Assembly: GCF_016801985.1 (NCBI RefSeq)
Contig: NZ_JAEVLS010000005.1
Coordinates: forward strand, 434,001 to 498,000
From: Steroidobacter gossypii
GTDB lineage: Bacteria; Pseudomonadota; Gammaproteobacteria; Steroidobacterales; Steroidobacteraceae
Length of the DNA stretch: 64,000 nucleotides
Direction of reading: 5' to 3'
A program made the position numbers and the translations under genes. This document shows positions 10,306 through 61,872 of this stretch, piece by piece; within the stretch, counting starts at the first letter, position 1, and the number at the start of each line of letters is the position of its first letter. The notes beneath the pieces are model-generated. The model saw only the letters and a list, made by a program, of their open reading frames with translations. It ran no database searches and was not told the DNA's origin.

Positions 10306-10473
10306 TTCCGATCCCATCCTTGCAGCCCATCGCAGCAGCCCATTCCCGGCAGCCCATCCCCACGGGACGGGGGCAATGCATGCCAGCAATCATATGACCG
10401 CATCCAGAGGACGGCGTGCCTCGAAATCAAAAAGGGTTTTTCAACGGCCGCCTACTGCTTCACAATCCACGGG

Positions 10474-11283
10474 ATGACTCCGTCCGATCGTTCACGCCAA
10501 AGCCACGGCCGCGAGCAGGCGCCCGGCCCCGTCTATGAGCAGCCGCTCAACGAGCGGATGCGGACTTTTCTGCGACTCGATTTTCTTTATCAGCAAGCGC
10601 TGTACCACGAAGAGCGCGAGGATGCGTGGTCAACCCGCGCCGCGATGAGCGCGCTGCTGGAAATTCTGGCCATCACCGCGCGCGGCGATATTCGCAGCGA
10701 AGTGCTCAAGGACCTCGAGCGTCAGATGGCTGTGATGCACGACTACACCACCCGCCCGGGCGTCGACACGTCGCGGCTCAAGGCGGTGCTGAACAACTTG
10801 GGCCGGCTGCGCACCGAGCTCAATTCGGTGGGCGCGCTGTTCATGCAGCGGCTGCGCGACTCGGAGTTTTTGAACTCCATCAAGCATCGCAGCACCATCC
10901 CCGGCGGCACCTGCGAGTTCGATCTCCCGGATTACCGCCATTGGCTGGATCAGCCGTTCCCGGTTCGCGCCAAAGCGTTCGGCGACTGGATGGCCACCAT
11001 CCGGCCGCTTTGCGATGCCGTCACCGAACTGCTATGGCTGACGCGCGAGGCCGCCCGGCCCCGTCCGGAAGTCGCCACTGGCGGCACCTTCCAGATTGCG
11101 TTCGAACGCGAGAATCCCTGTCAGCTGCTGCGGCTCGCATTGCCGGCGGGCACGCAGCTGTTTCCCGAAATCAGCGGCAGCCATCATCGCTGCAGCATTC
11201 GCTTCCTGTCGTGGAACGATGTGAATTCGCGGCCGGTTCAAACCACAGAGGACGTGCACTTCCAGATCAGCGTCTGCACTTGA
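10474..11283 (+). CDS. zapD: Cell division protein ZapD
   Basis: Cytoplasmic FtsZ-bundling factor of the DUF1342 family that cross-links FtsZ filaments in the Z-ring. The family start [19 protein letters not shown] is at residue ~21, after a polar N-terminal extension. The conserved [15 protein letters not shown] block is near residue 147. At 269 aa it is ~20 residues longer than E. coli ZapD, mostly from the N-terminus. yacG follows 7 bp later, the same pair as in E. coli; coaE, the usual third partner, is absent here. Confidence 0.9.
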
Positions 11284-11290
11284 GACCGAC

Positions 11291-11485
11291 ATGACTGTGG
11301 TTCGATGCCCCACCTGCGACCGTCCCGTCGAGTGGACGGAGGCTTCGCGCTGGCGCCCGTTCTGCAGCGAGCGCTGCAAGCTCATCGATCTGGGCGCCTG
11401 GGCCGCCGAGAAACACGCCATCCCGGGCGAAGTCGTCGAAACCGACGACGGTCCCAAACGTCACCGCGAGAGCGACGACGAATAG
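11291..11485 (+). CDS. yacG: DNA gyrase inhibitor YacG (small zinc-finger protein)
   Basis: 64-aa zinc protein known in E. coli to bind GyrB and inhibit gyrase. The four zinc ligands are visible as CPTC (residues 6-9) and CSERC (25-29), followed by the family block [17 protein letters not shown]. The acidic tail is normal. It is cotranscribed with zapD (7 bp gap). Confidence 0.92.
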
Positions 11486-11508
11486 CCGCCGCTCCCGCCG
11501 AACTGCGA

Positions 11509-13713
11509 TCAGCCGGCGTCCGCCTGCCGGGTCAGCCTCTGCATCTGTTCCATCCCCAGCGACTTGACCAGGAACGCCCACTGATCGGCGTAGTCCTCGA
11601 TCTGCATCCACACCGGCTTGCCGGCCCCGTGCCCGGCGCGCGTCTCCACTCGTAGCATCACCGGGTTGGGACAGCTCTGCGCGGCCTGCAAGGTGGCGGC
11701 GAACTTGTAGCTATGCCAGGGAACCACGCGATCGTCGCGATCCGCGGTAGTCACGAGCGTCGGCGGATAACAGACCTCTTTCACGTTATGCACCGGCGAA
11801 TACGCCAGCTGCGCACGGAATTCCGCTTCGTTCTCGCTAAGGCCGTAATCGCTCGACCACTGGCGCGCGTTGGCGCTCGGCGTGTGATAGCGAAGCATGT
11901 CCAGCACGCCCACGGCGGGTAGCGCCGCCCCAAACAAATCCGGACGCTGGGTCAGCACGGCGCCGACCAGCAGGCCGCCGTTGCTGCGGCCCCGGATCGA
12001 GATTTTCGCGGGTGAGGTGTACTTCTCCGCCACCAGGCACTCGGCGGCGGCGATGAAATCGTCGAACACGTTCTGCTTGCGCAGCTTGGTGCCGGCTTCG
12101 TGCCAGGCCTCGCCATATTCCGAACCGCCGCGCAGATTGGCCACCGCGTAGACGCCGCCCATCTCCAGCCACACCAGCACCGGCACGCTGAACGAAGGCT
12201 TCTGGGCGATGTTGAAGCCGCCATAGCCGTACAGCTGCACCGGGTTCTGTCCAGTCAGCTCCAGGCCCTTCCTGTGCGCGATGAACATCGGCACCCTGGT
12301 GCCGTCCTTGCTGTTGTAGAACACCTGCTTGACCACGAACTGACCGGTGTCCGCCGCCAGCTTGGGCGCACGCCACAGCTCGGTCGCGCCGGTCTTCAGA
12401 TCCAGCCGCGACACGCTCATGGGCGTCAGGAAATCGGTATAGGCGAAGAACGTTTCGTTGTCCTGCACGTCGCCGAAGAAGCCCAGCGCGGTGCCGAGGC
12501 CCGGCAACTTCACGTCGTACTGCGCCTTGCCGTTCAGATCGAACACGCGCACCAGCGAATGCGCGTCCTGCAGGTACTGCACGATGATCTTGTGACCGAC
12601 CAGGGTCACCTCGTCGGCGGAGAACGGCGTTTCCGGCACAACCACCCGCTGCTCGGCGGTCGCCCCCTCGGCCCCCACTGGAATCGCGATCACCCGCGCG
12701 TTGGGCGCATCCTTGTTGCTGCGGATATAGAAAACATCGTCGACGGCGGCAATGAATTGATAGTTGGCGTCGAAGCTGTCGATCAGGCGCACGGTCTCGC
12801 CCTGGGGCGTGCCGTCGGCCGCGATCTTCCGATAGTAGATGCCGGTGGATTGCGAGCCGTCGTACAGCCAGAACACGACGTAGCGACCGTCATCCGAGAT
12901 CTGCACATACGGATTGCGCGTCGGGTGATCGGTGACTTTGAAGACCAGGGGGTCCCGAGCGGCGTCGGTGCCAAGCTTGTGCCAGAACACTTCGCGCTGC
13001 CTGGTGTCGTCGCCCTTGCCCTCGGCATTCAACGGGAAGCGCGCGTAGTAGACCGACTTGGAATCGGCGGTCCACGCCACCGGCACGAACTTCACGTGGC
13101 GCAGAACGTCGGGCAGATCCTTGCCGGTGGCCACGTCGCGGAAGTGCCAGGAACGCCAGTCGGTGCCGCCGTCGGACAGGCTGTATGCAACCAGTCGCCC
13201 GTCGGGGCTGGGCACGAACTCGCCCAGCGCCACGGTCGCATCCTTGCTGAGTTTGTTCGGATCGAGCAGCACGCGCGGCTCGCCGTTCAGCCGCTCGGTG
13301 ACATACAGCACGCTCTGATTCTGCAGACCGTCGTTACGCAAATAGAAGTAACGATCGCCGCGCTTGAGCGGGATGTCGTAGCGCTCGTAGTTCCACAGCT
13401 GGGTCATGCGCCGCTTGATGTGCTCCCGGGCTGGAATGGCTTCCAGATACGGCTGGGCCAGCGCGTTCTGCGCCTGGATCCAGCTCCTGGTGTCGGCACT
13501 GTCGGGATTTTCAAGCCAGCGATACGGATCGGGCACGCGCACGCCGTGATAGGTATCGACATGCTCGATGCGTTTGGTCGCCGGATAGGCAATGCTCGGA
13601 GCGGAGCTCGGCCTGGCGGCCTGCTCGCTACTGGAGGCGATTTGCCTGGCGGGCTCGGTGCCGCACGCAGCGAGCAACAACAAAGCGGGCAGCAGCGGGA
13701 TGGTGCGTTTCAT
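11509..13713 (-). CDS. Prolyl oligopeptidase family S9A lipoprotein
   Basis: Serine peptidase cutting after proline in short peptides, 734 aa. The N-terminus is a lipoprotein signal (LLPALLLLAAC, lipid Cys17), so it is probably anchored in the envelope. The N-terminal block YPATKRIEHVDTYHGVRVPDPYRWLE region is typical. A seven-bladed propeller separates it from the hydrolase domain. The catalytic triad is Ser577 (GRSNGG), Asp660 or 661 (TADRDDRVVPWHS) and His695 (AGHGAGKP). An alternative ATG lies 12 bp upstream; 13713 was preferred because MKRT gives the better signal peptide. It is divergent from the DPP IV-like gene across 66 bp. Confidence 0.9.
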   Translation of the reverse strand: MKRTIPLLPALLLLAACGTEPARQIASSSEQAARPSSAPSIAYPATKRIEHVDTYHGVRVPDPYRWLENPDSADTRSWIQAQNALAQPYLEAIPAREHIKRRMTQLWNYERYDIPLKRGDRYFYLRNDGLQNQSVLYVTERLNGEPRVLLDPNKLSKDATVALGEFVPSPDGRLVAYSLSDGGTDWRSWHFRDVATGKDLPDVLRHVKFVPVAWTADSKSVYYARFPLNAEGKGDDTRQREVFWHKLGTDAARDPLVFKVTDHPTRNPYVQISDDGRYVVFWLYDGSQSTGIYYRKIAADGTPQGETVRLIDSFDANYQFIAAVDDVFYIRSNKDAPNARVIAIPVGAEGATAEQRVVVPETPFSADEVTLVGHKIIVQYLQDAHSLVRVFDLNGKAQYDVKLPGLGTALGFFGDVQDNETFFAYTDFLTPMSVSRLDLKTGATELWRAPKLAADTGQFVVKQVFYNSKDGTRVPMFIAHRKGLELTGQNPVQLYGYGGFNIAQKPSFSVPVLVWLEMGGVYAVANLRGGSEYGEAWHEAGTKLRKQNVFDDFIAAAECLVAEKYTSPAKISIRGRSNGGLLVGAVLTQRPDLFGAALPAVGVLDMLRYHTPSANARQWSSDYGLSENEAEFRAQLAYSPVHNVKEVCYPPTLVTTADRDDRVVPWHSYKFAATLQAAQSCPNPVMLRVETRAGHGAGKPVWMQIEDYADQWAFLVKSLGMEQMQRLTRQADAG

Positions 13714-13779: not shown

Positions 13780-16059
13780 ATGCGGTATACAACGACCTGC
13801 GTCGCACTGATTGCGACTTGTCTGCCCCCTTGCTTGTTAGGCCTGCCCGTGTCCGCCGAACCCCTCACCGTCGAACGCATCTTCGCCGATCCCGATCTGG
13901 CCGGTCCGCGGCTGCGCGAGCCGAAGTTCTCGCCCGACGGACGCTATGTCACCTACCTGCAGGGCAAGACGGACAACAAGGATCAGCTGGATCTGTGGGC
14001 GTTCGACACCCGCAACGGTACGGCGCGCCTGCTGGTCGATTCCCGCAAGCTGGTCGGCGACGAGAAGAAGCTGTCCGCCGAAGAAGAAGCGCGACGTGAA
14101 CGCCAGCGCACGGCGTCGTTACGCGGCATCGTCGAATATGAGTTCTCCAGCGACGGCAAGCGCCTGCTGATTCCGCTCGGCGGCGATTTGTATCTATACG
14201 ATCTCGATGCGAAGGCCGAGCCGGTGACGCGGCTCACCCACAGCGAATCGTACGAGACTGACGCCAAGCTCTCGCCGGGTGGCCGCTATGTCAGTTTCAT
14301 TCGCGATCAGGATCTGTTCGTGATCGATCTGCGCACGCGTCAGGAGCGCGCCATCACCACCGATGGCGCAGGCCTCGTGCAGAACGGCGTCGCGGAGTTC
14401 GTGGCGCAGGAAGAGATGGGGCGCGACACCGGCTACTGGTGGTCGCCCGATGACGCGCACATCGCTTTCACTCGCATCGACGATGCGCCGGTGCAGGAAG
14501 TAGAACGTTTCGAGATCAACGCGGACGGCGCGCGCATGTTTCGGCAGCGCTATCCTGCGGCCGGCACGGCCAACACCAAAGTCGAGCTGAAGGTTGCCAC
14601 CCTCGCGACCTCCAAAGTCGCCGACCTCGTTATCGGCCTGGGCGACGGCTATCTGGCGCGCGTCAAATGGTTCCCCGACTCCAAGGCGCTGGCCGTTCAG
14701 CGCCAGACCCGCGATCAGAAAAAACTCGAGCTGCTGAAGATCGACTTGCGCAATGGCGAATCGCGCGTGCTGCTAACCGAGACCAGTCCGCACTGGGTGG
14801 AACTCAACGACGACTTCAGATTCCTGAGTTCCACGCCGCAGTTCGTCTGGAGCTCTCGGCGCAGCGGCTACAAGCATTTGTATCTGTACGATCTGGACGG
14901 CAAATTGCTGCGGCCGTTGACGGACGGTGAGTGGATGGTGGTGGGCGACGGCTCCGAGAACGGCCTCGTCGGCGTCGACGAGGACGCGGGTCGCGTGTAC
15001 TTCCTGGGCACCAAGGACTCGCCCCTGGAGCGTCATCTGTATTGGACCTCGCTGAACGGCTCGAGCAAGGTCACTCGAGTCTCGAAAGAGGCCGGCTGGC
15101 ATGATGTGAAACTACTGCCCGGCGGGCGGGGCTATCTCGATGTGCATTCCGCGCCGGAGCAACCGCCATCGGCGAGCATTCGCAAGCTCGACGGCTCGCT
15201 CCAGCATTGGCTGCTGCGCAATCCGCTGGACGCCACGCACCCCTATCATCCCTATGTTTCCAATCATGTCGCCGAGGAATTCGGCTCGGTCACGGCCAGC
15301 GACGGCCAGCAGCTCTACTACCGACTGCTCAAGCCCGCGAACCTGCAGCCGGGCAAGAAATATCCCGCCGTCATCGACGTTTATGGCGGGCCGCACTTCC
15401 AGTATGTGCGCAAGGATTGGATGGGCGGCGCGCGGGCGACACAAGGTTTGTTTCGTCAGGTGATGGCGCAGAACGGCTTCGTGGTGCTCACGCTCGACAA
15501 TCGCGGCTCGGGCTTTCGCGGCAACGCTTTCGAGACTGCCATCGCTGGCCGCACCGGCAAAGTGGAGATCGACGATCAGCTGCGTGGCGTGGAATATTTG
15601 AAGTCCTTGCCGTTCGTCGCGGGCGGTCGCATCGGCATCATGGGCTGGAGCTACGGCGGCTACATGTCGCTCATGGCGCTCACCACGACCAAGGCGTTTC
15701 GCGCCGGCGTCGCAGGCGCGCCCGTCACCGACTGGGCGCTGTACGATACCCACTACACCGAACGTTACCTGAGCACTCCGCAGGCGAACGCCGACGGTTA
15801 TCGCAACAGCGCCGTTATTCCCTACGTGGATTCATTGCACGGCTCGCTGCTGCTCGTGCATGGCATGGCCGATGACAATGTACTGTTCACTCACAGCACG
15901 CTGCTGATGCAGAAGCTGCAGTCGGCGAACAAACCGTTCGATGTGATGACCTATCCCGGCGGCAAGCACGGCCTGGTGCGGATGCCCCAGCAGGGGCGGC
16001 ACTACTACGAGATGGTGTTGCGCTTCTTCAGTCGGGAGTTGAACAGCCCGGAGAGTTGA
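13780..16059 (+). CDS. Dipeptidyl-peptidase IV-like S9B serine peptidase, exported
   Basis: 759-aa exported aminodipeptidase that would release X-Pro or X-Ala dipeptides. A signal peptide covers residues 1-27 (ends VSAEP). The N-terminus-binding Glu pair is in AQEEMGRDTGYWWSPDD near residue 210. The triad is Ser624 (GWSYGGY), Asp698 (HGMADDNV) and His730 (GGKHGL). With the adjacent prolyl oligopeptidase it makes a proline-peptide degrading pair. Its stop codon abuts the stop of the convergent phosphodiesterase gene with no gap. Confidence 0.9.
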   Translation: MRYTTTCVALIATCLPPCLLGLPVSAEPLTVERIFADPDLAGPRLREPKFSPDGRYVTYLQGKTDNKDQLDLWAFDTRNGTARLLVDSRKLVGDEKKLSAEEEARRERQRTASLRGIVEYEFSSDGKRLLIPLGGDLYLYDLDAKAEPVTRLTHSESYETDAKLSPGGRYVSFIRDQDLFVIDLRTRQERAITTDGAGLVQNGVAEFVAQEEMGRDTGYWWSPDDAHIAFTRIDDAPVQEVERFEINADGARMFRQRYPAAGTANTKVELKVATLATSKVADLVIGLGDGYLARVKWFPDSKALAVQRQTRDQKKLELLKIDLRNGESRVLLTETSPHWVELNDDFRFLSSTPQFVWSSRRSGYKHLYLYDLDGKLLRPLTDGEWMVVGDGSENGLVGVDEDAGRVYFLGTKDSPLERHLYWTSLNGSSKVTRVSKEAGWHDVKLLPGGRGYLDVHSAPEQPPSASIRKLDGSLQHWLLRNPLDATHPYHPYVSNHVAEEFGSVTASDGQQLYYRLLKPANLQPGKKYPAVIDVYGGPHFQYVRKDWMGGARATQGLFRQVMAQNGFVVLTLDNRGSGFRGNAFETAIAGRTGKVEIDDQLRGVEYLKSLPFVAGGRIGIMGWSYGGYMSLMALTTTKAFRAGVAGAPVTDWALYDTHYTERYLSTPQANADGYRNSAVIPYVDSLHGSLLLVHGMADDNVLFTHSTLLMQKLQSANKPFDVMTYPGGKHGLVRMPQQGRHYYEMVLRFFSRELNSPES

Positions 16060-17130
16060 TCACCGCGCTCGCGCGCGGACCGCAATGTCGGGATAGTCAG
16101 TGAAAATTCCGTCCACGCCGAGTGCATATAGGGCGCGGAAATACTTTTCCGCGTCACCGTGTTTGGCTTGGTAACCAGCCGCACTTGGATTTCCGCGGCG
16201 TAGATCGGTTGGCAGCGCCGGGTTCTCGGCGCTGACACTCCATGGATGCACAAACAATCCGGCGGCATGTGCATCGGTCACGAACTGCGTTGGCGCTATG
16301 AGACGACCGTCGCGATCACGCGGCAACAGCAGATCCAGCTCGGGACCGACACCGTCGGCAAAGCTTGCGATCTTCCGCAGGCCCGCGGGCGAATACACAT
16401 CTGACCAGGCTGCAATGCCGTTCGCCCGCAAAATCTCGGCTGGCGGCGGCACGCTATTGATCAGAAACACGCACCGGAGTGGCGTGAGCTGGCGCAGAGA
16501 CTGCAACGTCTGTGGCCAGAACGACTGCAGGAACACCGGCGCGTCGCGACGATTCAGATCGTTCGCCGCCAACGTCTCGACCAGCTTGCGCTCCATCGGC
16601 AGACCGATGCTGGCGTGGTAGTTGGGGTTTTTGAGCTCGATGTAGAGTCCGACAGGGCGCCCCGCGGCCCGAACGAGGTCGATGATTTCCTGCAATGTGA
16701 GTATCTGCTCGCGACCATCGTGGGATGCGCTTACAGGCCGCCGCGCCGGAGCACGCTCTCTCGCGCGCAATGTCTTGATCTCCGCGAGCGTGAAGTCCTC
16801 CGCAAACCAGCCGGTGAAGATTTCGCCTTCGATGGTCCGCGTGGTGCGACGGTCGGCGAATTCGGGATGAGCGGCGACATCGGTCGAGACGCCAATCTCA
16901 TTCTCGTGTCGCGCGACCAGCACCCCGTCCCTGGTCATGACCAGGTCCGGCTCGATGTAATCCGCGCCCTGCTCGATGGCTAGCAGATAAGCAGCGCGCG
17001 TGTGCTCCGGCCGATAGCCGCTTGCACCTCGATGCGCGATGACAATGGGCGAATCGACCGACGCCGCGATGGCGGGCGCGCCCACCAGACACAGCACTGC
17101 GAGCAACCCACCGAGCCAGAGTTTGATCAT
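16060..17130 (-). CDS. glpQ: Exported glycerophosphodiester phosphodiesterase
   Basis: Hydrolyses glycerophosphodiesters to glycerol-3-phosphate and an alcohol, 356 aa. The start at 17130 lies 2 bp after the TonB-receptor stop (TGATCATG arrangement), which implies translational coupling. A signal peptide ends PAIAAS. GDPD motifs are IAHRGASGYRPEHT near residue 30 (catalytic His), then EPDLVMTRDGVLVARHE near 60 with the metal-binding Glu/Asp and second His. The C-terminal GIFTDYPD block is also present. The coupling suggests the receptor imports a glycerophosphodiester or a product of its cleavage. Confidence 0.88.
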   Translation of the reverse strand: MIKLWLGGLLAVLCLVGAPAIAASVDSPIVIAHRGASGYRPEHTRAAYLLAIEQGADYIEPDLVMTRDGVLVARHENEIGVSTDVAAHPEFADRRTTRTIEGEIFTGWFAEDFTLAEIKTLRARERAPARRPVSASHDGREQILTLQEIIDLVRAAGRPVGLYIELKNPNYHASIGLPMERKLVETLAANDLNRRDAPVFLQSFWPQTLQSLRQLTPLRCVFLINSVPPPAEILRANGIAAWSDVYSPAGLRKIASFADGVGPELDLLLPRDRDGRLIAPTQFVTDAHAAGLFVHPWSVSAENPALPTDLRRGNPSAAGYQAKHGDAEKYFRALYALGVDGIFTDYPDIAVRARAR

Positions 17131-27039: not shown

Positions 27040-27405
27040 TGGATCACTACCTTGCTGCCTTTCGCGCCCTAAAAAGCCGATGTCATCAGCGACGCGACAA
27101 TACGTTCACCCCCGCCTTGAACCGGCGCTGTGGACAGCATGGCTCGTGGCGACTTCAGCAGAGTGCCTGGTACTGGTCGAACAGCGCCGTGAGGCGCTTT
27201 CGACTTTACGGTGGACGTAGAACCGAATATTCGTGTTGTACATCCTGGCAACCCCGCTATCGTGGCGCAGCCCTCGTGGCTGGCCGTAGACCGGTGGCTT
27301 TGCGTCCCCGCCTTTCGACGGGTTTGCCCTTAACAGTGGCCGGAATATGCATAACGCAACGTACAAAGATCAAGCGCCTGGCGCCCAGAACGCGGCTTTC
27401 AGGGT
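27040..27405. other. 366-bp gene-free divergent promoter region
   Basis: Lies between the start codons of the M23 peptidase (minus) and dciA (plus), so it should carry both promoters. Weak plus-strand matches are TTTACG-N17-TATTCG (starting ~27206) and TTGTAC-N16-TATCGT (starting ~27235). No tRNA, repeat or convincing small gene was seen. Confidence 0.5.
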
Positions 27406-53579: not shown

Positions 53580-53888
53580 CTACTGGCCGACCAGAATCAG
53601 CTTCCCGGTCTTCGGATCCCGATAAACCTGCCCGACCGGCTCCATCCCGGCGCCTGCGGCCTGGCCGCGCAGCCCCTCCGGCAGCTCGGCCAACTCACGA
53701 CCCGGTTCGACCAGTTGCTTCCCGCCCTCGGCATTGCTCGATGTCATGTCGAGCGCCGGTTGCGCCGACACCAGCGCAACGATCAGGCCACAGATGAACA
53801 CCAGCATGATGTCTACGAGATTGACCAACGAGGCCTGCGGATCCTCGGGCGTTTCATCGAAGCGAGTGCTGGTCCAACGTCGCCTCAT
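53580..53888 (-). CDS. DUF2149 family membrane protein
   Basis: 102-aa protein with one membrane segment (LVDIMLVFICGLIVALVSA, residues ~25-43) and a periplasmic tail ending in YRDPKTGKLILVGQ. DUF2149 proteins are regularly encoded with a MotA/TolQ-type channel and a CobN-like protein, and look like a minimal ExbD/TolR partner: short cytoplasmic N-terminus, one membrane helix with an Asp (VDIM) at its start. The ATG at 53888 overlaps the channel gene stop (ATGA). Third gene of the riboswitch-controlled operon. Confidence 0.75.
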   Translation of the reverse strand: MRRRWTSTRFDETPEDPQASLVNLVDIMLVFICGLIVALVSAQPALDMTSSNAEGGKQLVEPGRELAELPEGLRGQAAGAGMEPVGQVYRDPKTGKLILVGQ

Positions 53889-54322
53889 TGCTGTCGTTCC
53901 CAACGTAGCAAGGCCTCGTCATACCAACGCCGGCGTAGCCGACCGACGATGAACCCGACCACACCGGCTGCAAGCCCGAGCACCGTGGCGTCGAACGCGG
54001 TCAGCATCGCCTCGGCCAGCAGATTTAGATTGCCATTGCTCAGCGCCGTCAGCCCGGGACCGAGCGAGATCAGCGTCGCCATCAAGCCGAGCATGGGCGA
54101 GGTGCGAGTGAGAATGTCGGCGCGCTCGATGCGTCGATGTGCTCGACGCTCGATGGCGCCGACATCCGCTGGCCGCTCGTGCCGACGCAACAATCCTCGC
54201 TCACCCAACAGCACCCCGATATCGACGCAGGCGAGCGCGACACAAACAAACAATCCGATGACGACCGGCACCAGCAGGAGCGGCACCAGTGCGTGTGTCC
54301 ATTGAACAATGAACGAACTCAT
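53885..54322 (-). CDS. MotA/TolQ/ExbB-type proton channel protein
   Basis: 145-aa inner-membrane protein. One membrane segment lies at residues ~10-32 (VPLLLVPVVIGLFVCVALA) and two follow after a cytoplasmic loop. The family block TSPMLGLMATLISLGPGL, then FDATVLGLAAGVVGFIVG, corresponds to the TolQ/ExbB channel helices. It is shorter than ExbB or TolQ. The ATG overlaps the CobN-like stop by 4 bp. With DUF2149 it probably forms a proton-driven motor for the CobN-like protein. Confidence 0.82.
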   Translation of the reverse strand: MSSFIVQWTHALVPLLLVPVVIGLFVCVALACVDIGVLLGERGLLRRHERPADVGAIERRAHRRIERADILTRTSPMLGLMATLISLGPGLTALSNGNLNLLAEAMLTAFDATVLGLAAGVVGFIVGRLRRRWYDEALLRWERQQ

Positions 54323-57300
54323 GCGGAGCGACCTTTCGGTACAACGTAGCGTCCGCGCAGATATCCGGCGGACAGGAGCACGGCCGTGGCCATCACGATG
54401 ATTGCCAGACCCCACGGCGAACGCGCGGCCGAGATCTGGCCCTCAGCCTGCTGCCGAGCTGGTTCGTTCGCAGGCTGCAGCTCGGTCATGGTCGTCGGCG
54501 TCGCGGCCGCCGTGGCCTGCACGCGTGCACGCTCCAACAACTGTTTCAGCGGTTCGATCTGATCGGCCCGCAGATACGGCTGCACCCACTGAAACACCGG
54601 ATGATCCGGCTGCGTGTGACCGCTGCCCGGCAAGCCATGTTCCAGCAGCAGATCCACCCATTGCTGACTCAGCTGCTGCAAGGTTGCGGCATCGGTCTGC
54701 CAGAACTGTTTCTCGGCCGCGACCAGCAGGATGGCCATCATGTTGGTTTTCACATGCACGCTGGAGCCCTGCTCCAGAAACCGATCCAGTCCCAGCCCGT
54801 GCGCGTCGTCCAGATACACCTGCTTGACCTCGTCCCAGGCCCAGCTCTTGATCACGTCGGGATTGGTGACCTGCCAGCCCCACAGGTATTCCATGAACTC
54901 GCTGCCCATGGTGCGTGCACCCGCGTATCCATGCTGCATTAGAGGCTTGATCCACGCTGGATTCAGATAGCGACCTCGCAGCTCTGCAAGCAAGGCGGCA
55001 GGCAACGGCTGCATCTGCGGCTGCGACGGGTTGGAATGATCGGCGACGTGACTCGCGGGCACGCGCCCACTCAATGTTTCCACCGCGAGACTTAGGCCGC
55101 CGAGGTAGTCGAACGCGTCATTGTTATCCATCAGGCCGTAGAGATTGCTGGAACGGCCGAGGTAAGTGTTACGCACGGCGCGCAGGTTGTTTCTCAACAG
55201 CGCCTGCTGTGCCTGGCTGGCGCCATCCGCCGAGTACGCATGGCCGATGCGATCGATGTAGATCTTCGCGAGCTCTTTGCGATCGTGCCAACTCCCCGAT
55301 CGTTCGACGGCGCGATTGATGCCGGCGCTGTAGTCGCCGGGCGAAGTGCCGAACACGCGCAAGCTGGCCTGCTTGCCGGCCTCCGCATGGCCGACGCCTT
55401 GCTTGATCAAGACCGATGTTTCATTCACCCAGTGCCGCGCGACATGATTGCGCGACAACGGCTCGTCACCGGGACGCGCCAACTGACCCAACGGCGCCAA
55501 TGCCGCCCGCAGCGATGTCACGAGATCGGGGCGGTTGCGCTCGATGGTGCGACGACTGCCGTCCAGCGCCAGCAACACGGCTTTGTCGAGCCAGACGATT
55601 TGCTGGCCGAACAGATCACGAAACAAACCAGACGTGACGAAGACTGTATCGGCGCGCACACCCACCTCGGTCAAGGGCAATCGTTGCAGACCCGCGACGA
55701 TGCCGCGACTGTTCCATTGCGGGGCCACGCCCAGCAGTGACAGCCCGAATCCCACCATGGCGCCTTCATCGCGCACCGAATCGGAAGCCCAAAGAATCAC
55801 TGCCTCCTTGCCACCCTCTTGCACCTTCTGGCGTGCTTCAGCCGCAAGCGTGGAGCCGAGGGTGTAACCGAGCCGCGAAGGAATCAGGCTGTTGTCGAGG
55901 CCATGGAAATTTCGTCCTGTCGGCAGCGCCTCGGCATTGCGAATCGGATCGTTGCCGGGTCCTGCGGCAATGAATCGCCCCGACAGTCCATGCAACAGCG
56001 CACGCATTTCATGGGTAGGCGAGCTCTGCAGGTTCCGATGCAGGGCCTGATCGCCTTCGTCCGCCTTCATGGACGCCAGCATAGTTTGCAGTGCTTCCGG
56101 GGTCCACGGCTTGCCAAACACGTGCAACCCCAGCGGCATGAAATCTTCCTGCAGATGCGTGAGGTAGTGGCCTATCTCGTGCACCAGCAACTCGTCATCC
56201 GCCTGTTCGAACGAGATGCCACGCACCTTCAGCTCTGCATCCATGCTCGCAGTCAGCGCATCCTTCAGATGCAGCTCGTCGATCAGGCCACGCATCGCGG
56301 CGGCCGCCTGCTTGCGCAGTGCTGGGTTGTTCGAGGATTCGTAACTCTCCACCAGCTGTCGCAGGCGCAAGAGATCGTCGTAAAGCGGCGTCGCGGTGAG
56401 CGGCGGGATCAAATGATCGACGACCACGGCGAGGCCGCGTCGCTTCGCCTGCAGCCCCTCGCCCACGCCGTCGACGATATAGGGATAGATGCCAGGAATA
56501 TCGCCCGCGATCAGAGCGGGATAATCGAGCTCATCCTGGCCGACACCTTTGCGTGGCAGGAACTCATAGGTCGAATGCCGTCCCAGATGCACGATGGCGT
56601 CCGCGCGGAACTCATGGCGCAACCAGAAATAAAACGCCAGATATTGATGCGTGGGTGGGATGCTGGTGTTGGCGTGGAGCAGTTCCTCGTTCAACTCCCA
56701 GCCGCGCGGCGGCTGCGGACCAACGAAGACCTTGCCGAAACGCACCCCCGGCAGCACCAACTTGCCTTGGTTCACCATGACGTTGCCCGGCAACTTGCCC
56801 CAGCCGCGCAAACCTTCGATGCCGGTGGCGGCAATGGCGCGGGTCAGGGATTCGATGCGCGCATCGTTTCCGCCCTGGGCCAGCTGGATTTCGTAGGCCG
56901 CCTGCAGCTGCTGAACCAGATCCATCGCGCGAGCGCGCGCCGGATGTTGAGCGCCCTCGAGCAAATGCTCGACTTCGTGCAACGTGCGAGTCACTTGCCC
57001 GCGCGCTTCCTGTGGCAGACGAGCGGCTTGCGCAGCCTCGACGTTTGCCTGGAGCAGCGCCAACGGACCGCCTGTCATTTCCTTCTGCAAGGCTCGAGGC
57101 AACGTCTCGAACCATGTGGCGTATTGATCGGCGCTGACATTTGCAACCCGCTTCGCCATCGCCCGTAGCACGTCGCCGTGCTGGGGAAGATTCACACCGT
57201 CCTGCTGCAATCGTTCCAACAACGCCTCGGGCGAGGCGGGCAACGGCCCGGTGTCGTAGCCCTGGCGCTTCATGGCCTGCAGGATTTCGAGCAGCGACGC

Positions 57301-58605
57301 CGGCACGTCAAGATTGTCCGCGCCGATGTTGTGACGCCCCGGCGGGTGGTTGTAATAAACAATGGCAACGCGCTTATCGGCGTTCCTTGTTTGTTGCAGG
57401 CGAATCCATCGTTCGATACGCGCCGTCAACTGATCCACTTGCGACGGAATCGCAGCGACTCGAGTAACAGCTATGCCAGTGAGTGCATCCACCTGCGCGG
57501 CCGCCGCTGCGGCGACCACGATAGGTTGGCCGATCCCCTGCAATTCGGGCATGGCCACGCGATAGTAAACGCTATCCCAGGCCAATCCCTGCTCGGACAT
57601 ACGCCAGCCCTCGGCGGTGACATCGTGCAGACGCAATGCCTTGAACACCGGCACATCGATCTGTTCCAGCGTTCGAGTGGCAGTCGCGCGATCACTGCTG
57701 CCGCCGATGATGAAATCCTGCACAGAGACAATCGCGCCCAAGCGAGGGCCGAGCTTGTCACGCAAGACCTCGAGCGCATCGCTGCTCGGCTTGCCCCAGC
57801 CGGCCAGCACCGTGAGGCATTCCAGTGAGCGCTCAATCACAGCGCGGCAGATCACGTCGCTCAAGCCAACGTCCGCGTGTTGATCTTCGATCACCGCGAC
57901 CACGCGCCGGTCGCCTTGAATTCGAAGATTGTCAGCGGTGAGCCACGCGCCGCGGGAATGGATGCGTATGGGCAGCGCATCCTCGACGGGCTTAATGGCC
58001 GCGGTTGTCGCGCGATCCTGCTCGGACAACATCAAAGCCAGCAACGACACCAGATTCGGCTCGCCCCGGTTCTGCCAGTACGCGCGCGCCTGGATCCAAG
58101 GCGCCAGCTGTGGATGACGCCGAACCGCGTCGACGACCGCTGCAGCGCTCGCATCTTTCTCAGCGGTCAGCGACGACAGCTCCGCATAGCGCGGGTCCTC
58201 CTCAACAAACAATCGTTTGCCGCGCCATCGACTGTGTCGTCCAAGCGCAGGATCGCCTGCGACGGCGATAACTTCACGCGCCGGAGCTGTGGGCAACAAC
58301 GCCTGAACGCGTTGCGCTGTCTCCTTGAATACGGTTGCGAGCAGCAGCGCGTCGGCGCCGCCGATCAGCTCCTGCAACTGTGCGTCGCTCAACGCATCGA
58401 TCTGCGCAGTGGTGCGAAACACGAGGCGATGTTGCGGCAGACGTTGGTTGAAATCGCGCGCCGCCTGCGCGAGATCGCCGGAGTTGCGTTCGGAAACGAC
58501 AGCAACCAACGTGGCCGCGAGCGACCCCGGGGCGAACCAGGAAAGCAACAGCAGAAGAAACATTCCGCCCGAACGGCGGCGAGCACGGCAGGATTGCAAG
58601 CGCAC
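54319..58605 (-). CDS. Exported, membrane-anchored CobN/HmuS-like chelatase subunit
   Basis: 1428-aa member of the CobN/BchH/ChlH tetrapyrrole chelatase family. Taking GTG 58605 (agga 9 nt upstream) gives a basic N-region followed by a hydrophobic signal (MFLLLLLSWFAPGSLAA), so the bulk should be periplasmic; a C-terminal membrane helix (LAIIVMATAVLLSAGYL) anchors it. Cytosolic CobN has neither. Core family sequence is clear: SIPPTHQYLAFYFWL, HLGRHSTYEFLPRK (His677), QAKRRGLAVVVDHLIPP, GSEFMEYLWGWQVTNPD. Canonical CobN has GKHGTLEWLPGK at the second site. It overlaps the channel gene and is preceded by a cobalamin riboswitch. A corrinoid or heme metal-handling role is inferred. Confidence 0.85.
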   Translation of the reverse strand: MRLQSCRARRRSGGMFLLLLLSWFAPGSLAATLVAVVSERNSGDLAQAARDFNQRLPQHRLVFRTTAQIDALSDAQLQELIGGADALLLATVFKETAQRVQALLPTAPAREVIAVAGDPALGRHSRWRGKRLFVEEDPRYAELSSLTAEKDASAAAVVDAVRRHPQLAPWIQARAYWQNRGEPNLVSLLALMLSEQDRATTAAIKPVEDALPIRIHSRGAWLTADNLRIQGDRRVVAVIEDQHADVGLSDVICRAVIERSLECLTVLAGWGKPSSDALEVLRDKLGPRLGAIVSVQDFIIGGSSDRATATRTLEQIDVPVFKALRLHDVTAEGWRMSEQGLAWDSVYYRVAMPELQGIGQPIVVAAAAAAQVDALTGIAVTRVAAIPSQVDQLTARIERWIRLQQTRNADKRVAIVYYNHPPGRHNIGADNLDVPASLLEILQAMKRQGYDTGPLPASPEALLERLQQDGVNLPQHGDVLRAMAKRVANVSADQYATWFETLPRALQKEMTGGPLALLQANVEAAQAARLPQEARGQVTRTLHEVEHLLEGAQHPARARAMDLVQQLQAAYEIQLAQGGNDARIESLTRAIAATGIEGLRGWGKLPGNVMVNQGKLVLPGVRFGKVFVGPQPPRGWELNEELLHANTSIPPTHQYLAFYFWLRHEFRADAIVHLGRHSTYEFLPRKGVGQDELDYPALIAGDIPGIYPYIVDGVGEGLQAKRRGLAVVVDHLIPPLTATPLYDDLLRLRQLVESYESSNNPALRKQAAAAMRGLIDELHLKDALTASMDAELKVRGISFEQADDELLVHEIGHYLTHLQEDFMPLGLHVFGKPWTPEALQTMLASMKADEGDQALHRNLQSSPTHEMRALLHGLSGRFIAAGPGNDPIRNAEALPTGRNFHGLDNSLIPSRLGYTLGSTLAAEARQKVQEGGKEAVILWASDSVRDEGAMVGFGLSLLGVAPQWNSRGIVAGLQRLPLTEVGVRADTVFVTSGLFRDLFGQQIVWLDKAVLLALDGSRRTIERNRPDLVTSLRAALAPLGQLARPGDEPLSRNHVARHWVNETSVLIKQGVGHAEAGKQASLRVFGTSPGDYSAGINRAVERSGSWHDRKELAKIYIDRIGHAYSADGASQAQQALLRNNLRAVRNTYLGRSSNLYGLMDNNDAFDYLGGLSLAVETLSGRVPASHVADHSNPSQPQMQPLPAALLAELRGRYLNPAWIKPLMQHGYAGARTMGSEFMEYLWGWQVTNPDVIKSWAWDEVKQVYLDDAHGLGLDRFLEQGSSVHVKTNMMAILLVAAEKQFWQTDAATLQQLSQQWVDLLLEHGLPGSGHTQPDHPVFQWVQPYLRADQIEPLKQLLERARVQATAAATPTTMTELQPANEPARQQAEGQISAARSPWGLAIIVMATAVLLSAGYLRGRYVVPKGRSA

Positions 58606-58724
58606 GATGGGAAATCCTGAAGCCGACCAACGCACGATGCGATCGCCTTCAGATCGCACCGAACCCGTCGTCGCTGCAGGAAATCCCGCTCGCTCAGCAC
58701 ACCCCGGCTGGACGAAGACGACCA

Positions 58725-58880
58725 CGGCAAGCTGGTCTCCTGGCTCGCGGCTTCGCGCCGCTCCATCGCCTTCCCAGGCCCTCGAGCCCAGTGGCCAGCC
58801 CCGATGTTTCAGGAGCTTCGATGGCGGCACCGCTTACAGTTGCGGGGGCAGCCCGGGCATTGCACCCGGTTCCCATCACT
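58725..58880 (-). promoter_or_regulatory. Cobalamin riboswitch
   Basis: Adenosylcobalamin-sensing leader on the minus strand, between the cobP stop and the CobN-like start. In order: gggaaccgggtg with cccggg (P3 region), the invariant ctgcccccgcaactgtaa (58834-58851), gccactgg, tgggaaggcgatgg, and the B12 box gagccaggagaccagc (58731-58746). The aptamer ends ~120 nt before the GTG. It should shut off the chelatase/channel/DUF2149 operon when cobalamin is plentiful. Confidence 0.95.
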
Positions 58881-58923
58881 TGTCGCTGGCGCGCACAGTG
58901 CGCGAAAAATGTTCGTTCGTCAA

Positions 58924-59520
58924 TCAACCGCCGGCGGCGGACTTGATGGGCACGGCGATGCCGGCCACCACCAGGGTCACCTCGTCGCACGCGGCCGCGA
59001 GCGCCTGATTCAAACGTCCCTGCTCGTCCTGGAAGCGGCGAGACAGCGGCAACAACGGCACGATACCGGCGCCGACTTCATTGGAAATCAACAGCACATC
59101 GCCGCGAACTGCCCTCAACCATTGCAGAAATTGGTCGCGTTCGGATTCCCAGGTCGGCAGCGCGGCGGTAGGCGCATCCTCGCGGAAATCTTTGAGCAGC
59201 GCGTTGGACAACCACAAGGTCATGCAGTCGATCACCAGCAGGTCGGCCTCGCCGTGATTGCGCAGCGCTTGCGCAAGGCCGGTCGGTGCTTCTAAGGTTC
59301 GCCATGTCGCCGGTCGCTCGGCCCGATGCAGGCGGATGCGATGTTCCATTTCCTGATCGAGCGCCTGGGCCGTGGCCACATAGGTCACGGACCGACCCCG
59401 CGCCGTCGACAGCGATCTGGCCAACGCGATGGCGTGAGCGGTCTTCCCGGAACGCGCGCCGCCGATGATCAGCCGTCGCCCGGCCGAAGCTCGCTCACCC
59501 GATTCGTTGTCGTTCACCAT
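58924..59520 (-). CDS. cobP: Adenosylcobinamide kinase / guanylyltransferase
   Basis: Bifunctional CobU/CobP enzyme that phosphorylates adenosylcobinamide and attaches GMP, preparing the nucleotide loop of cobalamin; 198 aa. The Walker A is LIIGGARSGKTAHA (residues ~17-30). TYVATAQALDQEMEHRIRLHRAERP contains the GMP-accepting His, and LLISNEVGAGIVPLLPLSRRF is the family C-terminal block. It is divergent from cobT with only 26 bp between the chosen starts, and lies upstream of the riboswitch on the same strand. Confidence 0.93.
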   Translation of the reverse strand: MVNDNESGERASAGRRLIIGGARSGKTAHAIALARSLSTARGRSVTYVATAQALDQEMEHRIRLHRAERPATWRTLEAPTGLAQALRNHGEADLLVIDCMTLWLSNALLKDFREDAPTAALPTWESERDQFLQWLRAVRGDVLLISNEVGAGIVPLLPLSRRFQDEQGRLNQALAAACDEVTLVVAGIAVPIKSAAGG

Positions 59521-59546
59521 TGTCCGCTCTCACTGTCTCGACCGTC

Positions 59547-60557
59547 ATGATAACCAACGAAGCCTTGCAACGCCGGCTCGACACTCGCACCAAACCGCAA
59601 GGCTCGCTGGGTGCGCTGGAAACGCTCGCCATGCGCATCGGCCTGGCGCTGGACACCGACACGCCCGTGTTGCGGGCGCCGCAGATGTTTGTATTTGCAG
59701 GCGATCACGGCATCGCCACTGACGGCGTCAGCGCTTTCCCGCAAGCCGTTACAGCGCAGATGCTGCTGAATTACCTTCAGGGCGGCGCGGCCATCAATGT
59801 CCTGGCGCGTCAGCATGGCATGACTTTGAACGTCGTTGACGCGGGCGTGGCCACCGATATCGGCGAACATCCTTCGCTCCTGGCGCGTGCCGTTGGGCGA
59901 AGCACGCGCAACTTCCGGATCGAGCCTGCCATGACCCCCGAGCAGTGTGCTCGAGCACTCGATACTGGCAAAACGTTGGCGAAAGACGCTCTGCGTCAGG
60001 GCTCCAATGCGCTGATGTTTGGTGAGATGGGGATCGGCAACACCGCCAGTGCTTCGATGCTGTTACATCGGCGAACCGGTTGGACGCTGGAAGAGTGCGT
60101 GGGGCGCGGCACAGGGTTGGACGATGTAGGCCTCGCCCGAAAGCGCGAACGTTTGGCCGCCGCGTCGGCGCGTTGTCCTCGGAAACTCGCTCCCATCGAA
60201 ACGATCGCGGAGTTTGGCGGATTCGAGTTGGCCATGATCACGGGCGCGCTGCTCGCGACGGCCGATGAGAAATGCATCGCGGTGATCGACGGCTTCGCGG
60301 TCTCGGTCTCAGCGATGCTCGCCATCGAGATCGATCCGCGAGTGCGGTCCCGCTGCATCTTCAGTCATTGCTCGGCCGAGCACGCGCATCGTCAGCTACT
60401 GGCGCACCTGGATGTGAAACCGTTGCTCGATCTCGGCATGCGCCTCGGCGAAGGCACGGGCGCGGCGATGGCATGGCCCATCATCGACGCGGCAGCACGT
60501 TTGATGACCGAGATGGCCAGTTTCGAATCCGCGGGAGTGGACGATCGCGCTTCATGA
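59547..60557 (+). CDS. cobT: Nicotinate-nucleotide--dimethylbenzimidazole phosphoribosyltransferase
   Basis: Makes alpha-ribazole phosphate, the lower ligand of cobalamin, 336 aa. The ATG at 59547 begins the conserved N-terminus (RLDTRTKPQGSLGALE). An in-frame TTG at 59520 is possible but would overlap cobP. Motifs are FAGDHGIATDGVSAFP, MFGEMGIGNTASASML and the C-terminal LGEGTGAAMAWPI with the catalytic Glu. Overlaps cobS by 4 bp. Confidence 0.94.
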   Translation: MITNEALQRRLDTRTKPQGSLGALETLAMRIGLALDTDTPVLRAPQMFVFAGDHGIATDGVSAFPQAVTAQMLLNYLQGGAAINVLARQHGMTLNVVDAGVATDIGEHPSLLARAVGRSTRNFRIEPAMTPEQCARALDTGKTLAKDALRQGSNALMFGEMGIGNTASASMLLHRRTGWTLEECVGRGTGLDDVGLARKRERLAAASARCPRKLAPIETIAEFGGFELAMITGALLATADEKCIAVIDGFAVSVSAMLAIEIDPRVRSRCIFSHCSAEHAHRQLLAHLDVKPLLDLGMRLGEGTGAAMAWPIIDAAARLMTEMASFESAGVDDRAS

Positions 60558-61348
60558 GCAGCGACGCTCACACCGCCCGACCCTCCCGGCTGCTCACCGA
60601 GCTGCGGCTGCTGCTCATGGCGGTTCAGTACTTCACGCGCGTACCCATGCCCGGTTGGGTGGGACATTCAACGGAGCAACTGAGCGGCACGGCTCGATAT
60701 TTAACGACGGTGGGCATTTTCATCGGCGTCGTCGGCGCGGCTGTCTTGTGGGCGACCAGCTTGATTCTTCCAGCCCCGCTGCCGGTCATCCTGAGCACGG
60801 CAGCGACGCTGCTGCTGACCGGAGCATTTCATGAGGACGGTCTGGCCGACACGTTCGATGGACTGGGCGGAGGCGCGACGCGAGAGCGAGCGCTGGAAAT
60901 CATGAAGGACTCGCGTGTGGGCACGTATGGCGTGGCTGCCCTCGTGCTCACATTGCTGATCAAAGTTGCTGCGCTGAGCGCCTTGCCCGTGACGCTTGCG
61001 ATTGTTGTTCTGATCGCAGGTCACGCCTTCTCGCGCACGTGCGCCGTCGCTCTGTTGTTTGCCGGCCGCTATGTCGGCAATCCCGAACTGTCGCGGGCAC
61101 GCGCGGTCGCTCAACCCATGGGCCGCGGCGAGTTCTTGTTCGCAGCGATCGTCGGCGTCGCGCCGCTGTACTGGTGCGGCATGCATGCGATCGCCGGTGT
61201 GATCAGTGCCCTGCTCGTACTCTACAGGTTGGCGCGCTGGTTCGTGCGACGCTTGGGCGGCTTCACTGGCGACACGCTCGGCGCCGCGCAGCAGCTGACT
61301 GAAATCACTTTCTACGTGGCCGTGTTGGCGTCGTGGAACTCTACCTGA
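60554..61348 (+). CDS. cobS: Adenosylcobinamide-GDP ribazoletransferase (cobalamin synthase)
   Basis: Polytopic inner-membrane enzyme that joins adenosylcobinamide-GDP and alpha-ribazole, 264 aa. The ATG overlaps the cobT stop as ATGA. Conserved parts are VQYFTRVPMPGW, the Asp-rich AFHEDGLADTFDGLGGG, RALEIMKDSRVGTYG and the C-terminal GGFTGDTLGAAQQLTEI. About six membrane segments. Overlaps cobC by 16 bp. Confidence 0.95.
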   Translation: MSSDAHTARPSRLLTELRLLLMAVQYFTRVPMPGWVGHSTEQLSGTARYLTTVGIFIGVVGAAVLWATSLILPAPLPVILSTAATLLLTGAFHEDGLADTFDGLGGGATRERALEIMKDSRVGTYGVAALVLTLLIKVAALSALPVTLAIVVLIAGHAFSRTCAVALLFAGRYVGNPELSRARAVAQPMGRGEFLFAAIVGVAPLYWCGMHAIAGVISALLVLYRLARWFVRRLGGFTGDTLGAAQQLTEITFYVAVLASWNST

Positions 61349-61872
61349 TCCGGCACACCGCTCCGGCGGTCGAGAAAGGAATCTGTTACGGGCGCGCGGA
61401 TATTCCGCTGGCGCACACAGCAGATACCGATATTCAGCGGGCGCTCGCGCCCCTGCCGCGATTCGATCTGATTTATTCCAGCCCGGCGCAGCGTTGTACT
61501 CGCCTGGCGAACGCGCTGGCGGAGCGCGATGGATGCGAGTTGCGCCTGGCCCCGGAACTTCAGGAGCTGCACTTCGGGCAATGGGAGCAATTGCCGTGGG
61601 CGCGGATTCCGAGAGAACATAGCGATACATGGGCGGCCGATCCCTGGAATCGCGCGCCACCCGGTGGAGAAACAGAACAAGCTTTATGGACCCGAGTCGC
61701 GACCTGGTATCGAGCGGCCTTTCCCGCCGCGGTTTCCTGCTGCGCCATCGTCGCGCACGGCGGGCCGCTGCGCGTGTTGCGTTGTCTGGCGCTCGGCCAG
61801 TGCATGGAACAGCGCTGGTCCTGGAGTCTCGCCTGGGGCGAGCACGCCCGCTTCGTGTTGCCGCCTGGCTGA
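61333..61872 (+). CDS. cobC: Histidine-phosphatase-family alpha-ribazole phosphatase
   Basis: Dephosphorylates alpha-ribazole phosphate (or adenosylcobalamin phosphate), 179 aa, GTG start inside the end of cobS. The phosphohistidine motif is LIRHTAP (Arg7, His8), the family loop is GICYGRADIPL, and the second catalytic His is in VAHGGPLRVL. Its operon position after cobT and cobS makes CobC more likely than another phosphoglycerate-mutase-like enzyme. Confidence 0.88.
   Translation: MELYLIRHTAPAVEKGICYGRADIPLAHTADTDIQRALAPLPRFDLIYSSPAQRCTRLANALAERDGCELRLAPELQELHFGQWEQLPWARIPREHSDTWAADPWNRAPPGGETEQALWTRVATWYRAAFPAAVSCCAIVAHGGPLRVLRCLALGQCMEQRWSWSLAWGEHARFVLPPG

Follow-up and report, generated by a model that had tools for sequence, protein, structure and literature searches.

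A B12-riboswitch-controlled CobN, MotA-type, and DUF2149 gene trio in Steroidobacter gossypii: a possible stator-coupled periplasmic cobaltochelatase

We analyzed a 64,000-nucleotide stretch of the Steroidobacter gossypii genome (contig NZ_JAEVLS010000005.1, positions 434,001 to 498,000; here called the window), in which a cobalamin (B12) riboswitch leads three adjoining genes that may encode a cobaltochelatase driven by a proton stator. The riboswitch aptamer (58713..58898, minus strand) matched RF00174 over the full model length with 95.5 bits against a gathering threshold of 31.5 (E 1.6e-22). It is followed on the same strand by a large chelatase subunit of the CobN family (54319..58605; PF02514, E 9.4e-249, 828.8 bits versus a cut-off of 24.5), a short form of the MotA/TolQ/ExbB-type channel (53885..54322; PF01618, E 1.7e-8, 34.7 bits versus 22.9), and a DUF2149 protein with a single transmembrane (TM) helix (53580..53888; PF09919, E 1.8e-11, over the Pfam cut-off). 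The genes overlap by ATGA at both joints, CobN/MotA and MotA/DUF2149. The original prediction, made from the DNA letters, had proposed this riboswitch, the three ATGA-linked genes, and a channel-type partner beside CobN, and the Rfam match, the Pfam matches, and the sequence agree with it.

The longest open reading frame of the window CobN begins with GTG at 58830 and reaches into the riboswitch aptamer. Later starts are possible at GTG 58605, TTG 58599, or ATG 58563, and the true start is uncertain. With a later start, the protein begins with a segment resembling a signal peptide, in which an n-region rich in Arg is followed by a core of hydrophobic residues and A-A at the end; its C terminus holds a TM helix followed by a positively charged tail. 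These hydrophobic ends are consistent with the signal peptide and C-terminal anchor that had been predicted. In NCBIfam, the protein matched nine CobN/BchH models and stayed below the cut-off of each. For the CobN equivalog TIGR02257, it scored 515.9 bits and did not reach the cut-off of 822.05.

DUF2149 was present in 9/150 family, 17/398 phylum, and 20/370 class genomes. The named relative scan kept 80 of 435 relatives, and all 80 scanned DUF2149 loci held a MotA-type gene, while 67 of them held CobN. Of the 13 loci without CobN, 10 are cut off or lie on short contigs and 3 have full flanks (L091, L126, and L134). A quick tree was made from 79 of 140 aligned CobN rows, the alignment having left out trio CobN reading frames of <1150 or >1650 residues. 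One locus (L213) was dropped from the clade counts, since its DUF2149 match was under the cut-off and it had no CobN or MotA match. The window CobN fell within one clade of 21 sampled loci (clade W, support 100), which adjoined other trio proteins (support 98) and was separate from canonical CobN and from nine rows that we call ChlH-type. The latter (L220 to L228) are TIGR02257 matches under the cut-off, not checked with a ChlH model, and 8/9 of them have a neighbor with a GKGGIGKST motif, which we take to be that of BchL.

An upstream B12 riboswitch on the same strand was found in 18/21 W loci, a weak one (33.5 bits) preceding the CobN of L052 and none being found in L053, L203, and L204. Among the other trio loci scanned with Rfam, 3/18 had one (L056, L066, and L067). 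B12 genes were matched near 17/21 W loci versus 2/24 other trio loci from the same samples. L203, which lacks the riboswitch and was counted as without B12 genes, has the corrinoid-remodeling enzyme CbiZ adjoining its trio, and no B12 link was found at L053 and L204. The tie to corrinoids is stronger than the DNA letters alone could tell, given the riboswitch in 18 W loci and the aerobic B12 operons of four relatives described below. A loose regular expression for the riboswitch had given 38 extra matches; it was replaced by Rfam and a stricter pattern, which recovered 15/17 known riboswitches and gave no additional matches in the test loci. Some trios outside W, Bacteroidota included, have B12 riboswitches as well (L056, L066, L067, L068, L071, and L073, with L072 by pattern only), so that B12 control either had several origins or survived in several branches. 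A thiamine pyrophosphate riboswitch with a TonB receptor (10347-12676) was observed directly after the W trio of L204.

Hydropathy prediction placed a signal-like N-terminal end together with a C-terminal TM helix in 21/21 W rows and 75/80 other trio rows, compared with 0/30 canonical CobN and 0/9 ChlH-type rows. The charge pattern places the CobN body outside in 20/21 W rows. CobW, a cytosolic cobalt chaperone, was found at 0/21 W loci versus 15/16 canonical CobN loci. Judged from these sequence features, the trio CobN is predicted to be periplasmic.

The equivalents of the HmuS catalytic residues H538 and E577 are kept in 21/21 W rows. At the site of the HmuS Asp1208-His1209 dyad, all 21 W rows have instead Asn (19 rows) or Asp (2 rows) followed by Asp. 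A D-x-x-D signature at this site, a marker of our own drawn from the alignment, is present in 21/21 W rows and, at its two ends, in 30/30 and 29/30 canonical CobN rows. The first Asp position is Thr in 51, Ser in 15, and Asp in 13 of the 80 other trio rows. His occupies the second dyad position in 8/8 HmuS-branch rows from Bacteroidota and Planctomycetes and in 5/9 ChlH-type rows. We lean toward a W metal site that is CobN-like rather than HmuS-like. A Met-rich insertion was not found, no stretch of 120 residues in the 21 W rows holding more than 9 Met, which is a weak test since five Bacteroidota HmuS-like rows (5 to 7 Met) also lack it. In three other trio CobNs (L063, L074, and L102), the metal-site signature is replaced (e.g., LDHPMSAAFLGG), and these proteins perhaps have another substrate or have lost activity.

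These residues bear on whether the trio might instead be a dechelatase of the HmuS kind, one that would obtain cobalt or some other metal by removing it from a periplasmic tetrapyrrole. The gene trio and its topology are the same as in hmu, and HmuS is a shown dechelatase (PMC12583661). The replaced dyad and the missing Met-rich stretch argue against such an activity in W, as does the riboswitch, which would mean expression at B12 shortage, when destruction of corrinoids would be harmful. We consider a dechelatase improbable. The simpler candidate of a plain heme HmuS was lowered by the metal-site residues and by the gene context.

The channel proteins share a P-x-L-G-L-x-x-T motif, whose P, G, L, and T are kept in 124, 124, 124, and 123 of 124 rows, respectively, and one TM Asp of DUF2149 is invariant (41/41). 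No match to the ExbD family (PF02472) was found in Pfam for the window DUF2149, which perhaps serves as an ExbD/TolR/MotB-like partner of the channel, given the features of its sequence. Its predicted fold had a mean predicted local distance difference test score of 65.9, the TM helix being well predicted and the remainder poorly. Searches of solved structures with DUF2149 gave nothing useful. The single sequence matched proteasome subunits, none better than E 1.4, and a DUF2149 profile matched a designed repeat protein (E 3.4e-7), pieces of ribosomal L4, and a TolR fragment (E 1.6); we attribute the designed-repeat match to chance similarity with a simple-sequence helix.

A channel pair of this type could also serve a corrinoid uptake helper, in which the CobN-like protein would be a periplasmic receptor passing B12 and its relatives from BtuB to BtuF, the pair would power the hand-off or an outer-membrane receptor in the manner of ExbB/ExbD, and no metal would be inserted or removed. 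BtuB-like receptors (>100 bits) occur in 11/21 W loci, a B12-switched BtuB operon follows in the S. gossypii genome, and uptake would suit the genomes in which CbiC was not found. The published model for HmuU/HmuV is likewise that of powering a TonB-dependent receptor, HmuR (PMC12583661). Against this, the S. gossypii genome already has 8 ExbD matches, the active-site His and Glu are kept throughout W, and late-insertion genomes would be left without a known chelatase. The scan result, a MotA-type gene at every DUF2149 locus and CobN at 67 of the 80, also argues against it. Archaea lack an outer membrane, and the archaeon Methanosarcina acetivorans nevertheless matches DUF2149 and the CobN family and not ExbD, although whether these genes adjoin each other there was not seen. 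It is therefore more likely that the channel pair partners the chelatase than a TonB receptor, and we rate an uptake helper as unlikely, if still the strongest of the rivals.

Further B12 genes lie next to the trio. Upstream of the riboswitch lies a CobU/CobP cobinamide kinase (58924..59520, minus strand; PF02283, E 1.3e-54), followed on the plus strand by the dimethylbenzimidazole phosphoribosyltransferase CobT (59520..60557; PF02277, E 2.3e-120), the cobalamin-5-phosphate synthase CobS (matched domain 60620..61348; PF02654, E 4e-51; the gene starts somewhat before 60620), and a CobC-type phosphatase (61333..61872; PF00300, E 1.2e-29). This CobT and this CobS are not the chelatase subunits of those names. 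The four genes had been named correctly from the letters as cobP/T/S/C. A c-di-GMP-I-GGC riboswitch also lies in the window (27243-27337, minus strand, 69.7 bits).

In the S. gossypii genome as a whole (G000; 7.1 Mb, 97.6% complete), three B12 riboswitches were found, each leading one unit, the trio being the first. The second riboswitch lies just past the window, ahead of BtuB-CobD-CobO-BtuF-BtuC-BtuD-CbiB-CobQ, and the third leads the alpha and beta subunits of a class I ribonucleotide reductase (L013 7666-11569, contig C22). The genome has two CobN-family proteins, both inside trios. The second trio (L005 7700-14380, contig C22) stands with a CirA-like TonB receptor, and a B12 riboswitch was not found there in 20 kb; by analogy with P. 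aeruginosa PA1922-PA1925, it is perhaps zinc- or iron-linked. A genome-wide search for chelatase-type CobS (PD_CobS, TIGR01650) found none (0/1), and all five matches of a joint query for CobN, ChlID, and CobS fell on fragments of the two trio CobNs (19 of 26 candidates scored). The absence of CobS/CobT-type ATPase partners, which had been noted for the locus, held across the genome in these searches. CbiC, a corrin-ring gene, was not found in searches of the genome, and a role of the trio in de novo B12 synthesis in S. gossypii was rejected on that ground. The genome keeps CobO, CobQ, CbiB, CobU, CobT, and CobS, which act after cobalt insertion. Because no canonical CobN, ChlID/CobS, or CbiC was found there, the trio in S. 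gossypii most likely serves corrinoid salvage.

A first count, with CbiC in 0/22 trio genomes, had suggested that the trio is confined to salvagers. This was overturned in the class sample, where CbiC occurs in 42/370 genomes. The sample holds 12 window-clade genomes (ten new ones, G431, and G000), and in 4/12 (G616, G742, G642, and G875) no more than about 10 kb separates CbiC from the trio. The four clusters carry CobB, CbiD, CobG, CobH, CobI, and CobJ, with CobG over its cut-off in 4/4 and CobM in the flank in 4/4. CobI (L205) and CobH (L208), at one locus each, were over the cut-offs of models for metal-free precorrins. In NCBIfam searches of cluster reading frames, 6/10 queries gave nothing, four on doubtful frames, and the CobL and CobM frames were searched again. 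In the late-insertion pathway, cobalt is inserted by CobNST (PMC7689651). By their gene content, we identify the four operons as belonging to the aerobic, late-cobalt-insertion pathway.

The joint query was run on 28 genomes. In the four genomes with these operons, the trio CobN was the only CobN-family protein found (19 of 19 to 31 candidates scored). ChlID matches there did not exceed 27 bits, nor did CobS matches, except for an AAA+ protein of G616 (87 bits, 30% identity). As controls, the query returned CobN and ChlID from G207 and CobN and CobS from G196; it also returned CobN and ChlID from G447 and G199, each of which had supplied one query part. ChlI/CobS beside canonical CobN had been missed by two first motif searches and was found by a third. 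In 4/4 of these operons, CbiD and CobG flank an ABC-2 permease resembling the one at L206; such a permease was matched in 0/38 of the remaining CbiC loci from the class sample, although some of those loci are short. The L205 operon includes a TonB gene. Ahead of its trio riboswitch, L206 also encodes a DsbD_2-like membrane protein (16055-16801, minus strand) with a NicO match just under the cut-off, possibly a nickel or cobalt transporter.

The explanation that we favor, at somewhat short of even confidence, is a B12-dedicated, membrane-anchored periplasmic cobaltochelatase in which a proton-driven stator replaces the AAA+ motor. The CobN-type subunit would bind metal-free corrin, such as hydrogenobyrinic acid a,c-diamide or a similar compound, and insert cobalt. 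The MotA/ExbB-type channel and DUF2149, with a TM Asp as in ExbD, would form the stator, which would take the place of the ATP-driven ring, CobS/CobT or ChlI/ChlD, and act on the TM anchor of CobN to remodel that subunit. Proton coupling is suggested by family resemblance. In relatives with the aerobic pathway, the ABC-2 exporter would deliver metal-free corrin into the periplasm, from which the cobalt form would be returned by BtuFCD; in S. gossypii, the trio would metallate scavenged corrin, feeding CobO, CobQ, CbiB, CobU, and CobS. The steps kept in S. gossypii, which start right after cobalt insertion, agree with metallation of scavenged corrin, and scavenged cobalt-bearing precursors would fit them too. 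In a broader form, which we hold more tentatively, this exporter-fed machine would be a second late cobalt-insertion system of B12 synthesis, and salvagers would live on the metal-free corrin of others.

Several findings weigh against a periplasmic, stator-driven cobaltochelatase. Insertion in the periplasm would need a loop of export and reimport, and we know of no described pathway with such a loop. Of the 38 CbiC loci to which the ABC-2 permease operons were compared, just 4 show CobG, so that for the aerobic pathway itself the contrast is 4/4 versus 0/4. One of those four, L327, has a similar cluster that includes canonical CobN, CobB, CobO, and ChlID. CobW is present in just 1/4 of the CobG loci without a trio. 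The four trio-CbiC genomes sit on about two tree branches and amount to roughly two cases. The chelatase search in these genomes covered CobN, ChlID, and CobS, the early chelatases CbiX and CbiK not being searched. The second Asp of D-x-x-D is unspecific, being present in 63/80 other trio rows. An hhalign comparison of DUF2149 with ExbD, represented by three sequences, aligned the TM Asps over 26 columns with a probability of 33% (E 4.5e-4); this weak result and the missing Pfam match speak against DUF2149 as a plain ExbD. Purified HmuS, expressed in another host, removes heme iron in an NADH-dependent manner (PMC12583661), which makes it less likely that a motor is strictly required, and no motor appears in the HmuS mechanism as proposed in the available text of that paper. 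The influence of HmuT, HmuU, and HmuV on HmuS activity is left open in the corresponding passages of PMC13227078.

The distribution of CbiC weighs in the same direction. It was not found in 8/12 window-clade genomes of the class sample, nor in S. gossypii and 13 other window-clade or B12-switched trio genomes (one of them 67% complete), so that most window-clade genomes would lack a late-insertion substrate of their own. Canonical CobN and ChlID occur besides such a trio in G096, G129, and G528, which shows that the two machines can coexist. CbiC was not found in these three genomes, and canonical CobN with ChlID in the absence of CbiC would fit use of scavenged metal-free corrin. CobS-like AAA+ proteins that are 64 to 68% identical to that of L142 (13272-14597) were observed in G663, G106, G115, and G096, and canonical CobN was not found in the first three by the joint query. 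The trio might also act in repair before import, either replacing incorrect metals in corrinoids or tetrapyrroles that the cell has scavenged or taking off axial ligands. Its retention in genomes where CbiC was not found and the CbiZ gene adjoining the riboswitch-less trio of L203 speak for repair, which alone does not explain the four late-insertion operons; we judge it improbable.

As published, the class I chelatases that serve B12 and chlorophyll synthesis work with AAA+ motors driven by ATP (PMC7689651). If the cobaltochelatase reading is true, a proton stator doing AAA+ work would couple membrane energy to chemistry in a new way, and HmuU/HmuV, DUF2149, and Zur-regulated CobN-like genes would gain a common job. 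It would fill the missing step in late-insertion B12 producers where no CobS or ChlID was found, suggest that metal-free corrins are a shared nutrient, and let the pathway of a salvager begin at cobalt insertion outside the cytoplasm. No proton-driven or periplasmic cobaltochelatase is described in the titles and abstract openings of the open literature searched, and an earlier mention is possible.

The BtuS/HmuS proteins, their gene trio, and their periplasmic placement are already in print. The hmuYRSTUV operon holds CobN, MotA/TolQ/ExbB, and DUF2149 members (PMC10434189), matching the trio that the original prediction named for Bacteroidetes. Members of this family (the Bacteroidota hmu proteins and B. 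fragilis BtuS1 and BtuS2) share with the window trio the CobN with signal peptide and anchor, the MotA/ExbB channel, and DUF2149 (PMC6460266, PMC10434189, PMC13227078), and passages citing Rodionov 2003 credit it with proposing BtuS as a third kind of CobN, for metalloporphyrin salvage. The window trio differs in its separate clade, its B12 riboswitch, its corrinoid genes, and its CobN-type signature; no Met-rich insert was found in it, and no hemophore gene was noted. In P. aeruginosa, the Zur-regulated PA1922-PA1925 genes encode a TonB-dependent receptor, a CobN-like protein, a channel-type protein, and DUF2149 (PMC9431628), and there control is by zinc rather than B12. Canonical aerobic cobaltochelatase CobN, which works with CobS/CobT or ChlI/ChlD, resembles W in its PF02514 domain, its D-x-x-D signature, and, in four relatives, its aerobic B12 operon; W differs in the signal peptide and anchor, the lack of CobW at its loci, and the adjoining MotA and DUF2149 genes, and for the S. 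gossypii trio AAA+ partners were not found genome-wide. CobN proteins are said to lie in operons without Hmu-type partners in the relevant passage of PMC13227078, to which the W loci are exceptions of a sort. With the ExbB-ExbD, TolQ-TolR, and MotA-MotB stators, the trio shares the Pfam channel family, the P-x-L-G-L-x-x-T motif, and a single-TM partner with an invariant Asp, whereas it has no ExbD Pfam match and its neighbor is a chelatase-type protein.

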